NCBI GenBank assembly: GCA_017429525.1
Contig: JAFROT010000031.1
Span: 1-64,000, forward strand
Length of the DNA stretch: 64,000 nt
DNA from: Bacteroidaceae bacterium
GTDB lineage: Bacteria > Bacteroidota > Bacteroidia > Bacteroidales > Bacteroidaceae
Direction: 5' to 3'
Shown here: piece after piece, positions 2,919-45,919 of the stretch
Numbering within the stretch: the stretch's first letter is position 1
Layout of the letters: every line of letters begins with the position of its first letter
Made by a program: the position numbers and the translations under genes
The notes under the pieces: model-generated
The model's input: the letters and a program-made list of their open reading frames with translations, nothing else
Told to the model about the DNA's origin: nothing
The model's database searches: none

Positions 2919-3028
2919 TCTTTATTCGCAAGGCCTCACGCGAATATACGTGTCGACCTACACGAATGGTCGCATCGGCTCACACGAATATACGTATCTG
3001 CTCATTCGAATATACGCGGATTGCCGAA
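2919..3028. repeat. 22-nt-period intergenic array A (five units)
   Basis: Units start at 2919, 2941, 2963, 2985 and 3007, exactly 22 nt apart. CGAATATACG opens the units at 2941, 2985 and 3007. The unit at 2963 has the variant CGAATGGTCG. The unit at 2919 matches only in its second half (TCGCAnnGnCTCAC). The second half of the others is a looser CTCACA-like word. There are no spacers between units, so it is not a CRISPR array. Confidence 0.8.
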
Positions 3029-3038
3029 CGTCTTCTGC

Positions 3039-4211
3039 TTAGGCCAAAATAGCATCGGCCAACGCCTCAAGCTGCTGGATATCAGCATCCTTCATGCGCC
3101 CGCGCAAGGTTACTACCGGCTCAACGATTTCCACCTGCTTCATGTTCTCGAGCATCGGGCGCATGGTCTTGGCGGCGCTGGGCGCCCACGAACCATTCTC
3201 GACAAGTCCGACACGACGGCGCTGATAAGCCTTTATCTCAAGATGATGGAGGAAATCGTACATCGGCGGGAAGACGCCTGCGTCATAGCTTGAAGCCATA
3301 CAGATCATACGCCCATAGCGGAAAGCATCTTCGATAGCTTCACCGAGGTCATCGCGACAGAGGTCGCTGATAGCCACCTTAGGACAGCCTTTAGCCTTCA
3401 GGATTTCAACAAGTCGCTCGGCCGCTGCGGCCGTGTTGCCATGAATGCTGGCATGAGCAATGAACACGCCCTCTGTCTCTACCTCATAGGCACTCCAGAT
3501 GGTGTAAAGGCGCAAAGCTTCCGCCAGCTGTTCGCCCTTGAGGACAGGGCCATGCAATGGTAGAATCTGCTGGACATCAAGGGCTGCAGCCTTCTTGAGG
3601 AGGGTACTGACAGGCGCACCATACTTGCCACAGATATTGAAGTAATAACGGCGTGCCTCGCATGCCCAGTCGTCGGCATCAGCATCGTAGACGCCGAACT
3701 TGCCGAAGCCATCGGCCGAGAAGAGGACACGATCTGCATCGTCATAAGTCACCATTACCTCAGGCCAGTGGACCATAGGGGCCATCACGAAGTGCAGCGT
3801 GTGGCGGCCCAGCGAGAGCGTGTCGCCTTCCTTGACGGTCATCACGCGACTTTCGAGGGCGCTATCCTCGAAGTACTGAGGCATCATCTGCTTGGCCTTG
3901 GCTGAACAGACAATCTGCATATCGGGGTACATAGCGCAGACATCGGCGATGCCGCTTGCGTGATCCGGTTCCAAATGGTGGACAATGAGATAGTTGGGCT
4001 GACGGTCACCAAGGACCTCACGAAGGTTCTGCTTCCATTCGTCCATTGTACGGCCGTCGCTGGTGTCCATGACGGCGATATGCTCGTCGAGGATGACGTA
4101 AGAGTTGTAGCACATGCCATCGGGGGTGACATACTGGCTCTCAAAAAGATGCTGTTCGGGGTCGTCGACGCCGATGTAGTGGATATCCGAAGTAACGTTT
4201 TTTGTTTCCAT
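3039..4211 (-). CDS. fprA: Flavodiiron protein (FprA-type oxygen/NO reductase)
   Basis: This 390-residue protein has an N-terminal metallo-beta-lactamase-like diiron domain and a C-terminal flavodoxin domain. The diiron ligands are visible: H-x-E-x-D-H in HHLEPDHAS, His in MVHWPEV, Asp in SADGFGKFG and His in LPLHGPVL. The FMN-binding loop is ASIHGNTAAA near residue 260. The family reduces O2 to water or NO to N2O in the cytoplasm of anaerobes, usually with electrons from rubredoxin; a rubredoxin gene lies at 11484-11642. I chose the ATG at 4211 because an upstream in-frame TTG at 4241 overlaps the promoter box at 4239-4246. It stands alone on its strand, divergent from korA. Confidence 0.9.
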   Translation of the reverse strand: METKNVTSDIHYIGVDDPEQHLFESQYVTPDGMCYNSYVILDEHIAVMDTSDGRTMDEWKQNLREVLGDRQPNYLIVHHLEPDHASGIADVCAMYPDMQIVCSAKAKQMMPQYFEDSALESRVMTVKEGDTLSLGRHTLHFVMAPMVHWPEVMVTYDDADRVLFSADGFGKFGVYDADADDWACEARRYYFNICGKYGAPVSTLLKKAAALDVQQILPLHGPVLKGEQLAEALRLYTIWSAYEVETEGVFIAHASIHGNTAAAAERLVEILKAKGCPKVAISDLCRDDLGEAIEDAFRYGRMICMASSYDAGVFPPMYDFLHHLEIKAYQRRRVGLVENGSWAPSAAKTMRPMLENMKQVEIVEPVVTLRGRMKDADIQQLEALADAILA

Positions 4212-4238
4212 AATCCGAGTATTTTGATTTTTCGGGCG

Positions 4239-4246
4239 CAAAGGTA
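4239..4246 (-). promoter_or_regulatory. -7 box TACCTTTG upstream of fprA
   Basis: A perfect TAnnTTTG on the minus strand, 27 nt before the fprA ATG. It rules out the upstream TTG start, which would lie inside the box. Confidence 0.8.
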
Positions 4247-4309
4247 GAATTTTTCTTCGAACACGACAACAAAAAAACGATTTATAAACTCTAAATCATA
4301 AATAATGTG

Positions 4310-4317
4310 TAACTTTG
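4310..4317 (+). promoter_or_regulatory. -7 box TAACTTTG upstream of korA
   Basis: A perfect TAnnTTTG about 55 nt before the korA start. It is divergent from the fprA box, with about 65 nt between the two elements. Confidence 0.75.
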
Positions 4318-4372
4318 CGGCCGAAATTCATCGAATAACCATCTTCTAAAACCCTCAACTCTCAACAGAGTA

Positions 4373-43510: not shown

Positions 43511-43539
43511 CACGCAAAACCAAGAAGAAATCACTCCCC

Positions 43540-45504
43540 ATGGAAGAAGAAATCAAAAACGGCGCCGATTACAGCGCCAGTAACATTCAAGTTCTCGAAG
43601 GCCTCGAGGCCGTGCGCAAGCGTCCCGCCATGTACATTGGCGACATCAGCGAGAAGGGTTTGCACCATCTCGTCTACGAGACTGTCGACAACTCCATCGA
43701 CGAAGCTCTCGCTGGATATTGCACTCACATTGAAGTAACCATCAACACCGACAACTCCATTACCGTACAGGACAATGGTCGTGGTATTCCCGTGGACATG
43801 CACGAGAAGGAGCATAAGAGCGCCCTCGAAGTCGTCATGACCGTGCTCCACGCCGGCGGTAAGTTCGACAAGGGCAGCTACAAAGTCTCTGGTGGTCTCC
43901 ACGGCGTAGGTGTCAGCTGCGTCAATGCCCTCTCCACACACATGCTCAGCCAGGTCTTCCGCGACGGCAAGATCTATCAGCAAGAGTACGAGAAAGGCAA
44001 GCCCCTCTACGACGTCAAGATTGTCGGCGAGACCGAGCTCCGTGGTACACGCCAGCAGTTCTGGCCCGACGACACCATCTTCATCACCACCGAGTACAAG
44101 TACGACATCCTCGCCAATCGCATGCGTGAGCTTGCTTTCCTCAATGCGGGCATCACCATTACCCTCACCGACCTGCGTCCCGACGACGAAGGCAATACCC
44201 GTCAGGATGTCTTCTACTCCAAGGACGGCCTTCAGGAGTTCGTACGCTACATCGACAGCACCCGTACCCATCTCTTCAACGATGTCATCTATCTGAACAC
44301 CGAGAAGCAGGGCATACCCATTGAGGTGGCGATTATGTACAACACCGCCTACAGCGAGAACCTGCACTCCTACGTCAACAACATCAACACCATCGAGGGC
44401 GGCACGCACCTCCAGGGCTTCCGTATGGCCCTCACACGCACCTTGAAGAAGTACGCCGAGGAGCAGTGTGCCAAGGAGTTGGAGAAGCTCGAGAAGAACA
44501 AAGTTGAGATCTCTGGCGAGGACTTCCGCGAAGGCCTCACCGCCGTCATCAGTATCAAGGTGGCCGAACCTCAGTTCGAAGGACAGACCAAGACGAAGCT
44601 GGGCAACAGCGAAGTGGCTGGTGCCGTACAGCAAGCCGTGGGCGAAGCGCTCTCCAATTATCTCGAAGAGCACCCGAAGGAGGCTAAGCTCATCGTCGAC
44701 AAGGTCATCCTGGCCGCAACAGCCCGTGTAGCAGCCCGCAAGGCTCGCGAGAGCGTGCAGCGCAAATCACCCATGAGCGGGGGTGGACTGCCAGGTAAAC
44801 TTGCCGACTGCTCCGACCGCGACCCCGCTAACTGCGAGATGTTCATCGTCGAGGGTGACTCCGCAGGCGGCTCGGCCAAGCAAGGGCGCAACCGCCACTT
44901 CCAGGCCATCCTGCCCATCCGTGGTAAGATCTTCAACGTCGAGCGTGTCATGTGGCACAAAGCCTTCGAGCACGAAGAGGTCAACAATATCATCCAGGCT
45001 CTCGGCGTTCGTTATGGGCTCGGCGAGGATAGCAAGGAAGCCAACTATGACAAACTGCGCTACCACAAGGTCGTCATCATGACCGATGCCGACGTCGATG
45101 GCTACCACATCGACACCCTCCTCATGACACTCTTCTACCGCTATATGCCCGAACTCATCCAGAAAGGACACCTCTTCATCGCTACGCCACCGCTCTATCG
45201 CTGCAAGAAAGGCAAGATTGAAGAGTACTGCTACAACGACCAGCAGCGTATGCAGTTCCTGCTTAAATACAACGATGGTCAGGAACAAGGCGTCTACACC
45301 CAGCGCTACAAAGGTCTTGGCGAGATGAATCCCGAGCAGCTCTGGGAGACCACCATGAACCCCGAGACACGTCTCCTGAAGCAAGTGACCATCGAGGATG
45401 CCGCAGGTGCTGACTACGTGTTCTCTATGCTCATGGGCGAAGACGTTGCACCCCGCCGTGAGTTCATCGAACGCAATGCCAACTACGCCAACATCGACGC
45501 TTAA
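43540..45504 (+). CDS. gyrB: DNA gyrase subunit B
   Basis: This 654-residue type IIA topoisomerase ATPase subunit has a GHKL ATPase domain with [17 protein letters not shown], the ATP-lid [14 protein letters not shown], a transducer domain, and a Toprim domain with [20 protein letters not shown] and [15 protein letters not shown]. The C-terminal tail includes [20 protein letters not shown]. With GyrA it introduces negative supercoils. ParE is less likely given the family-typical motifs, but the two are close. A strong terminator follows. Confidence 0.93.
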
Positions 45505-45530
45505 TACACCACCTATACACTTTCATAAAG

Positions 45531-45563
45531 GTAGCCTGCCGCCATCGGTTAGGCTACTTTTTT
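45531..45563 (+). terminator. Intrinsic terminator after gyrB
   Basis: GTAGCCT (45531-45537) pairs with AGGCTAC (45551-45557), followed by a run of six T. Confidence 0.85.
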
Positions 45564-45736
45564 AATTCGTTTGACTTGCCAACCCTCAAGGGATAGTTCA
45601 CGGCCATTTGTCTGAAAGCACGCCTTTTCCCAGTTTGGCCGATGACAACGCTCCGTGTACAGAAACACCTTCACAAGCATTTGCTAAACGTATAGCGCCC
45701 ATAGTTTGCCGGTCTTTTGTCTGTTCGAGCCGCTTC

Positions 45737-45802
45737 GTCTCACCAATGAGACTTGCTTGTCTCACTGGTGAGACACGTCTGTCTCACTAATGAGACAACC
45801 CG
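45737..45802. repeat. 22-nt-period array D of tandem hairpins
   Basis: Three units start at 45737, 45759 and 45781. Each opens with a 16-nt inverted repeat GTCTCA-N4-TGAGAC (inner bases CCAA, CTGG, CTAA) followed by 6 variable bases. Sequence inside the stems is fixed; loops and linkers vary. Confidence 0.88.
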
Positions 45803-45831
45803 AAAGATATGGTCGTGTGGGCCCTTCCGAA

Positions 45832-45919
45832 TAGGCCGCACAGCCTCAACGTCCATTCAGCATAGCCTCAACGACCATTCAGCACAGCCTTGCCGTCTGT
45901 TCAGCTCAGTCTCACCGTC
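45832..45919. repeat. 22-nt-period array E
   Basis: Four units start at 45832, 45854, 45876 and 45898. The consensus is CATTCAG CANAGCCTCAACG then two or three bases. The first seven bases are poorly kept in the first unit (TAGGCCG), and the fourth is the most diverged. The sequence is unrelated to array D, which ends 29 nt earlier. Confidence 0.82.

Follow-up and report, generated by a model that had tools for sequence, protein, structure and literature searches.

Why should five intergenic arrays (A to E) of apparently different sequence all repeat at 22 nt? The earlier note on this DNA had described them as spacer-free, unrelated in sequence and alike only in period. Within the window (the whole 64,000-nucleotide stretch analysed here), TRF returned a period of 22 for all five: 3.6 copies with 70% matches in A, 2.9 with 83% in B, 2.7 with 97% in C, 3.0 with 75% and 2% indels in D (which is exactly 22 on the dyad lattice as well), and 3.7 with 78% in E. 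The degenerate repeats are in direct contact, as claimed. Array C does exist, although it starts at about 26315 rather than 26350, with a palindrome ahead of it (26292-26315). The features are as follows.

2935..3022, no strand: array A, four main-family dyads at 2945.5, 2967.5, 2989.5 and 3011.5
7423..7488, no strand: array B, three dyads of the CCATGCGCATGG family at 7433.5, 7455.5 and 7477.5
7523..7564, no strand: 42-bp inverted repeat GTCGCTTAGGGC...GCCCTAAGCGAC, centre 7543.5
7577..7620, no strand: two weak main-family sites (14-bp core model), dyads 7587.5 and 7609.5
25967..26291, plus strand: leader of a dispersed composite repeat with the cap and array C at its end (from its copies, alignment of five)
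26292..26315, no strand: cap, the 24-bp palindrome GTTATTCGGTCGCGACCGAATAAC, dyad 26303.5
26315..26446, no strand: array C, six main-family dyads from 26325.5 to 26435.5 in steps of 22
45668..45733, no strand: weak main-family lattice sites ahead of array D, dyads 45678.5 (12.2 bits) and 45722.5 (6.4 bits)
45734..45799, no strand: array D, three TCTCAY..RTGAGA palindromes, dyads 45744.5, 45766.5 and 45788.5
45800..45909, no strand: array E and its lead-in, divergent main-family units, dyads 45810.5 to 45898.5

The claim that the arrays are unrelated does not hold: a single degenerate dyad consensus covers A, C and, weakly, E, D and E lie in a single 22-bp register (45788.5 + 3 x 22 = 45854.5), and dyad symmetry is common to all five, contrary to the earlier view that they have no sequence feature in common. 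Under the full motif, the four dyads of A score 19.6, 22.4, 18.8 and 11.3 bits in order; the lead-in dyad of E (45810.5) reaches 11.8 bits and the E units only 1.0, 1.6 and -3.5. The 3' end of an ODP-family gene (3039-4241, minus strand) lies 16 bp beyond array A. The three units of B jointly form one long inverted repeat, the 42-bp inverted repeat is centred three lattice steps past its last dyad, and the sites at 7587.5 and 7609.5 keep its phase at only 2.8 and 1.4 bits (full 22-bp model). The leader contains a CTACACTTTTACACC/AGAGTGCTAAAGTGTAG inverted repeat, and the cap dyad stands exactly 22 bp, one lattice step, before the first dyad of C. Array D has unlike linkers between its palindromes. 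Sister loci of B and D occur at six and seven other places in the same genome, respectively.

These 22-nt arrays are real, beyond chance, and genome-wide. In a blind sample of 415 kb (the window plus the starts of 20 contigs, 351 kb of it outside the window), the commonest period of at least 10 was 22 (16 arrays), followed by 14 (8 arrays) and 21 (6 arrays). The pool of 165 arrays left after a low-complexity filter, which includes stretches selected for holding matches, has period 22 in 74, 23 in 12 and 21 in 11. In the three later sets, 9 of 20 stretches held an earlier match, and 2 of 20 and 15 of 20 were selected for matches; array counts from such stretches are inflated, and spacing and phase are unaffected by the selection. 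The peak at 22 that the earlier note had asked for is thus present, and shuffled sequence, which it had named as the counter-check, yielded nothing of period 10 or above at an unchanged threshold in any of the five sampled groups, which rules out chance as the origin of the arrays. This genome holds 38 motif-defined arrays in 815 kb. The order as a whole does not share the period: across 16 other families, 258 kb of sequence, partly from short contigs, held one array at 22 and one at 23.

Most period-22 units are imperfect dyads, since a perfect 12-bp dyad occurs in only 9% of consensus units, compared to 0.9% of shuffled units. In arrays of genomes other than this one, conservation falls from 0.84-0.88 at the seven dyad-adjacent positions to 0.76-0.78 further out, and arrays of other periods lack a comparable fall away from the unit centre. 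The half-sites vary independently at dyad pairs 4-7, where pairing is no commoner than independence predicts. Pairs 1-3 do show correlation, with an excess of symmetry at 1 and 3 and of asymmetry at 2, and this counts against simple independent half-sites, which do not predict it. Sites of at least 10 bits outside arrays number 24 coding and 8 intergenic, versus 36 and 2 in one shuffle, and five of those eight intergenic sites lie on the lattices of D/E, L023 or L046. With so few sites off the lattices, a classic regulator with scattered operators was rejected.

Most telling is that palindromes of different families stand on one 22-bp lattice. Main-family sites within 200 bp of other dyads fall at phase 0 of 22 in 64 of 65 cases near caps, 9 of 10 near B dyads and 8 of 9 near D dyads, and 3 of 3 are in phase near CCAACCGGTTGG dyads; one B locus has a spacing of 43 rather than 44. 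Likewise, all eight perfect 16-bp palindromes near but outside arrays are in phase (six caps and two B). The main-family site collection was stepped by 22 bp from seeds, so that its own spacing count (142 at 22 and 2 at 44) is not independent. The family-phase test, the near-array palindromes, the cross-genome cap test and the spacing of CGWMYRKWCG matches (134 of 137 pairs within 120 bp are 22, 44, 66, 88 or 110 apart) were all obtained without such stepping; the first two rely on arrays or a motif model from the stepped collection. Neither palindromes of a single row nor copies of the leader count as independent events.

The same phasing extends to other species. The inner 16-mer of the cap occurs 27 times in this genome and is present in 15 of 139 genomes of the genus. 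Fourteen other genomes were picked solely by this 16-bp palindrome. Of the 34 palindromes that lie there no more than 140 bp from the cap, 19 keep its phase, where 1.5 would be expected; a distant control gives 2 of 50, against 2.3 expected. Perfect 12-mers are in phase in 5 of 7 cases (distant control, 1 of 1), and 14-mers with one mismatch in 11 of 20 (distant control, 2 of 10); under two looser palindrome definitions the distant control shows a slight excess (8 of 106 and 5 of 39). Near the cap in these genomes, identity is 0.41 at lag 22, compared to 0.23-0.28 at the other lags from 12 to 33. Related genomes carry other palindromes at a 22-23 bp step, several with unlike linkers: in G003 and G010 the cores are kept at 22-23 bp and the linkers vary, and G010 mixes spacings of 22 and 23. 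A Paraprevotella MAG contig (L112) also carries such an array, as judged by self-similarity. The words change between species. By eye, an array follows gyrB in two of 22 relatives (L093 and L119) and is absent from that space in the remaining 20. Among 19 loci compared, no gene family beside the cap is common to different loci across species, and the cap pattern has no match in viral contigs.

Could copying alone have produced the common period? Tandem duplication has clearly added units in some arrays (L032, L033 and L037, with near-identical units). However, linkers differ from unit to unit in array D, G003, G010, L130 and L162, where the fixed-register copying that the earlier note had offered is not needed, and as a sole cause such copying was rejected on account of unlike linkers. 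Neutral minisatellites, in which tandem duplication of a palindrome-prone unit yields period 22 with no bound protein, would account for the frequent near-identity of units within an array, but duplication neither sets the phase between unlike palindromes nor keeps pitch across unlike linkers. Many species show this pitch, each time with other words, and 101 of 102 arrays are intergenic; we consider this origin quite improbable.

Hairpins are a second alternative, in which the palindromes would work as single-stranded DNA or RNA stem-loops (REP/BIME-like elements, mRNA stabilisers or substrates of hairpin enzymes). As RNA, four stretches fold better than dinucleotide shuffles, namely B (z of -11.5), C (-4.1), D (-7.2) and the cap (-3.4). 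The whole of B is a single 69-nt hairpin, a pairing largely retained at the B sister loci. For A and E, however, folding does not exceed that of shuffles (z of -1.2 and -0.5); pairing covariation is absent at dyad pairs 4-7, and flexible single strands would not demand that unlike palindromes stand exactly 22 bp apart. Four of the six stretches do fold well, yet hairpins were rejected as the common principle, and we regard this reading as unlikely. An Rfam scan of the window found five tRNAs and nothing else.

Alternatively, the arrays may be cargo, the repeat part of MITE-like elements like the BrickBuilt elements of Porphyromonas gingivalis, a type marked by terminal inverted repeats on leader and tail. 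This genome has 17 copies, complete or partial, of the leader of array C; twelve span 297 bp or more and match 25967..26291 at 72-79% identity, and the leader's 14-mer CTACACTTTAGCAC has 40 matches. Some other array flanks match in pairs (L017/L034, L020/L041 and L019/L046) and three D sister loci have flanks in common (L191, L192 and L194). Yet searches with the regions of A and D/E matched array parts only, with no repeated flanks, and no common right flank was seen among C-type copies. One leader copy (L235) has neither cap nor array, and the cap adjoins 22-nt rows even in species where the leader search gave no leader. Mobility as the general explanation thus appears very unlikely.

The arrays are almost exclusively intergenic: 2 of 38 motif-defined arrays and 1 of 102 self-similarity arrays (the other 101 being intergenic) lie inside ORFs, as called with a simple purpose-written gene finder. 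Of 98 classified arrays from five sets, convergent genes flank 34, where intergenic length predicts 18.0 (p = 9e-5), tandem genes flank 44 and divergent genes 20 (21.2 predicted). The earlier statement that arrays sit just past 3' ends and never in operons therefore survives as a tendency, not as a rule. This genome, with 18 of 37, and the gyrB loci, with 9 of 22, account for the convergent excess, to which G015, G017 and G010 do not contribute.

On balance, we lean towards reading the arrays as rows of dyad-symmetric sites on a 22-bp lattice, putatively for cooperative docking of protein dimers on the same face. A 22-bp step is about two helical turns and would line up neighbouring dimers along a single helical face. 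The near-perfect palindromes (cap, B, D and CCAACCGGTTGG) may be strong sites that nucleate binding, with degenerate sites extending the rows and some units added by tandem duplication; strong and weak sites in one lattice are as expected if so. One common constraint, two helical turns between protein contacts, had been among the earlier suggestions, and it fits best with the peak at 22 and the common register of unlike palindromes. Such rows would probably not be ordinary operators but work at gene ends or chromosome boundaries. Related species use different words, with several per genome, which suggests either a fast-changing binding specificity or a protein family with one stacking geometry. 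More speculatively, and with rather less confidence, the arrays could be a genus-wide chromosomal ruler: a fast-diverging family of dimeric DNA-binding proteins with one stacking geometry, for which any species-specific mix of palindromes works on the 22-bp lattice, the conserved cap nucleates or closes many rows, the rows mark gene ends or chromosome boundaries, and the words turn over as self-recognition sites might.

If protein-bound, the arrays would form a class of sites scattered over the chromosomes of rumen Bacteroidales, with spacing kept and sequence not, and ordinary motif or alignment searches would therefore miss them. They would also offer a natural system for the co-change of a protein with a large set of sites, and for the upkeep of register.

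Among known systems, CRISPR arrays do not fit, as spacers are absent and the repeats are degenerate and contiguous. Plasmid iterons are likewise tandem protein sites about two helical turns apart, but they are direct, non-dyad sites beside an initiator gene, with one cluster per replicon; the 38 motif arrays in one genome do not agree with this, and none of the 10 window proteins scanned, mostly beside arrays, matched any plasmid initiator family. REP/BIME elements are similarly dispersed, extragenic and palindromic, with lineage-dependent words, but their units are hairpins that have a tagged foot and keep no set 22-bp register, and the fixed step and lack of covariation at dyad pairs 4-7 set the present arrays apart.

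P. gingivalis belongs to the same order as the rumen bacterium of the window, and its 22-nt repeats were reportedly described in the 2003 W83 genome paper. The accessible part of a later source lists 22-, 23- and 41-nt tandem repeats in P. gingivalis along with BrickBuilt, one 23-nt sequence family within a MITE with IS5-like ends and a leader; the number of repeats varies among strains, and BrickBuilt_5 differs between them by 184 nt, or 8 x 23 (991 vs 807 nt; PMC4596501). These repeats resemble ours in being intergenic, spacer-free, 22-23 nt long and present at many loci, with a leader in BrickBuilt as in array C; the 22-nt repeats receive no more than a mention there and may be of the same kind as ours (PMC4596501). 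In contrast to our period of 22 and several unlike palindromes, BrickBuilt is a single 23-nt family, and the accessible description includes no lattice of unlike palindromes (PMC4596501). No closer precedent was found in the open-licence literature on such arrays, and our arrays suggest a second look at the little-explained 22/23-nt Porphyromonas repeats.

The geometry itself has a parallel in phosphorylated BvgA (BvgA~P), which, in the accessible part of its description, binds as head-to-head dimers at 22-bp intervals along one helical face, weak sites lying between stronger ones (PMC7250471). Its arrays occur at a few Bordetella promoters and serve one protein, unlike the arrays dispersed between gene ends here (PMC7250471). 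The feature expected of a BvgA-like cooperative dimer array, dyad sites at 22-bp centres, is present in ours, and the two share the 22-bp step and the mix of weak and strong sites (PMC7250471).

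TRF assigned a period of 22 to all five arrays of the window, whose sequences were also inspected directly. The window features discussed here are:

2935..3022, array A
7423..7488, array B
25967..26291 (+), leader preceding the cap and array C
26292..26315, cap, a palindrome before array C
26315..26446, array C
45734..45799, array D
45800..45909, array E with its lead-in

The draft genome to which the window belongs totals 3.30 Mb in 56 contigs. By gyrB, its nearest relatives within the named collection are uncultured members of the Bacteroidaceae/Prevotellaceae, many of them ruminant-derived, with Paraprevotella somewhat more distant. 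In a blind sample of this genome (415 kb, comprising the window and up to 20 kb from the start of each of 20 contigs), 22 was the most frequent period ≥10, with 16 arrays, and shuffled sequence gave zero arrays with a period ≥10, which bears out the genome-wide peak that the earlier note proposed as a check. Among congeners, G015 has 14 arrays at period 22, G010 has six at 22 and four at 23, and G003 has three at 23 and none at 22. Across 80 gyrB loci (731 kb), period 22 occurred 19 times, 21 and 23 four times each, and 44 twice; 16 other families of the order (258 kb) yielded one array at 22 and one at 23.

Repeats of shorter period are also frequent in the genome, period 7 foremost. A second short-repeat class, AT-rich and built of heptamers, has periods 7, 14, and 21 (28, 15, and 15 TRF rows in the own-genome sample; e.g., L017:12321-12394 and L014:3850-3971) and resembles heptamer repeats reported for Beggiatoaceae (PMC4679880). 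Repeats based on hexamers (AACGAAAACGGGAACG type) show periods of 18 and 36 at L022:13459-13558 and L024:18666-18752.

The earlier note described the five arrays as unrelated, but most arrays of the genome follow one dyad motif, CGWMYRKWCG inside the 22-mer SCTWYRCGWMYRKWCGYRWAGS; A and C fit it well, and E, a divergent member, has a full-model score near zero. The 10-mer has 169 matches in 815 kb, compared with 57 after shuffling; of the 137 pairs ≤120 bp apart, 134 are spaced by a multiple of 22. Our collection of this main family comprises 182 sites, which form 38 arrays with 2 to 8 sites each. Outside these arrays, 24 coding and 8 intergenic sites reach ≥10 bits, versus 36 and 2 in one shuffle. 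Five of the eight intergenic sites lie on lattices, i.e., in 22-bp register: D/E accounts for two, the mixed array of L023 for two, and L046 for one, 110 bp from the array there.

Further palindrome families accompany the main one: B, D, CCAACCGGTTGG (copies spaced 44 bp), and the cap TTCGGTCGCGACCGAA. Array B (7423-7488) is, besides its three inner dyads, one long inverted repeat over its entire length, a pairing that its sister loci largely retain.

These unlike palindromes share one lattice. The cap dyad lies exactly 22 bp from that of the first array C unit, D and E form a single register flanked on both sides by main-family sites (45678.5 to 45898.5), and the 42-bp inverted repeat that follows B has its center three lattice steps from it. 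We counted main-family sites ≤200 bp from D, B, CCAACCGGTTGG, and cap dyads in the own genome (6, 7, 4, and 12 loci, several of them lacking a main-family site in range) and found 8/9, 9/10, 3/3, and 64/65 in phase, respectively. All eight perfect 16-bp palindromes in the vicinity of the 38 arrays, but not within them, are in phase (six caps, two B), as are 10 of 17 when one mismatch is permitted.

Array C is part of a ~500-bp repeat consisting of the leader, the cap, and then 22-nt units. There are 17 full or partial leader copies, one of which (L235) lacks cap and array. Twelve long copies share 72-79% identity with the window copy, whereas, in the long copies inspected, the cap is either intact or differs at one base. 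An inverted repeat inside the leader (26022-26125 in the window, typically ~102 bp), with CTACACTTTAGCAC (40 matches in the own genome), may be a small element in its own right; G015 has a related pair, CTACACCTTTACACCC, close to a cap array (L222).

Of 139 genomes in the genus, 15 contain the cap 16-mer (reversed control, 0), with 27 copies in the own genome, 12 in G015, and 9 in G130. In a set of 14 loci, each from a different further genome, many caps adjoin rows with a 22-bp step whose palindromes are species-specific (e.g., AAGACCGCGGTCTT in G132, AAGACGTAGGTCTT in G143); by eye, at least L284, L285, L288, and L289 appear to have no neighboring row. Palindromes ≤140 bp from a cap are in phase in 19 of 34 cases (1.5 expected), compared with 2 of 50 in a control at 400-700 bp. 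Identity at lag 22 exceeds 50% on 7 of 28 cap sides, and on none at other lags from 12 to 33. Additional genomes carry yet other palindrome words in their arrays. The 64 CACC[CGA]TGCA sites of G010 (49 intergenic, 15 coding) are spaced mostly by 22, 23, 44, 45, or 67, with unlike linkers.

Only one of 102 self-similar arrays with period 22 or 23 lies within a called ORF, and the coding share of the DNA is 78-88% where computed. Motif-defined arrays do so in 2 of 38 cases; those at L025:1306-1415 and L043:7660-7725, inside long called ORFs, run counter to the intergenic rule. The earlier note's placement just beyond 3' ends holds in part: median distances are shorter to 3' ends (54-160 bp) than to 5' ends (115-422 bp) in all five sets, but divergent spaces are not avoided (20 arrays; 21.2 expected). 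Convergent spaces hold 34 of 98 arrays from the five sets versus 18.0 expected. The convergent preference seen in the own genome would fit a role as boundary or in read-through, a function that we infer. In G017 (L174), the 3' ends of gyrB and an ODP-family gene lie on either side of a single array; the window has these ends (45504 and 3039) ~42 kb apart, with arrays D/E and A, respectively. In this single case, a rearrangement has its edges at arrays. By sequence inspection, a terminator-like inverted repeat of gyrB precedes D, so D is not simply the gyrB terminator.

Altogether, the independent variation of half-sites at dyad pairs 4-7, the lack of any gain in RNA fold stability over shuffles for A and E, and the phasing of unlike sequences point to recognition of double-stranded DNA by dimers contacting their neighbors: dimers would dock on the dyad sites and touch adjacent dimers. 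Two observations run against this dimer reading: B, C, D, and the cap fold strongly, and there are correlations at dyad pairs 1-3.

Our literature search did not find unlike, species-specific palindromes sharing one lattice, and we file the arrays as a kind of phased protein-site array, with putative sites, belonging to no named family. Tandem repeats of 22, 23, and 41 nt are reported in Porphyromonas gingivalis, the 23-nt ones being described as BrickBuilt (PMC4596501). BvgA~P binds as head-to-head dimers every 22 bp (PMC7250471); we liken this to the proposed array geometry of neighboring dimers on double-stranded DNA, with proteins that here we infer.
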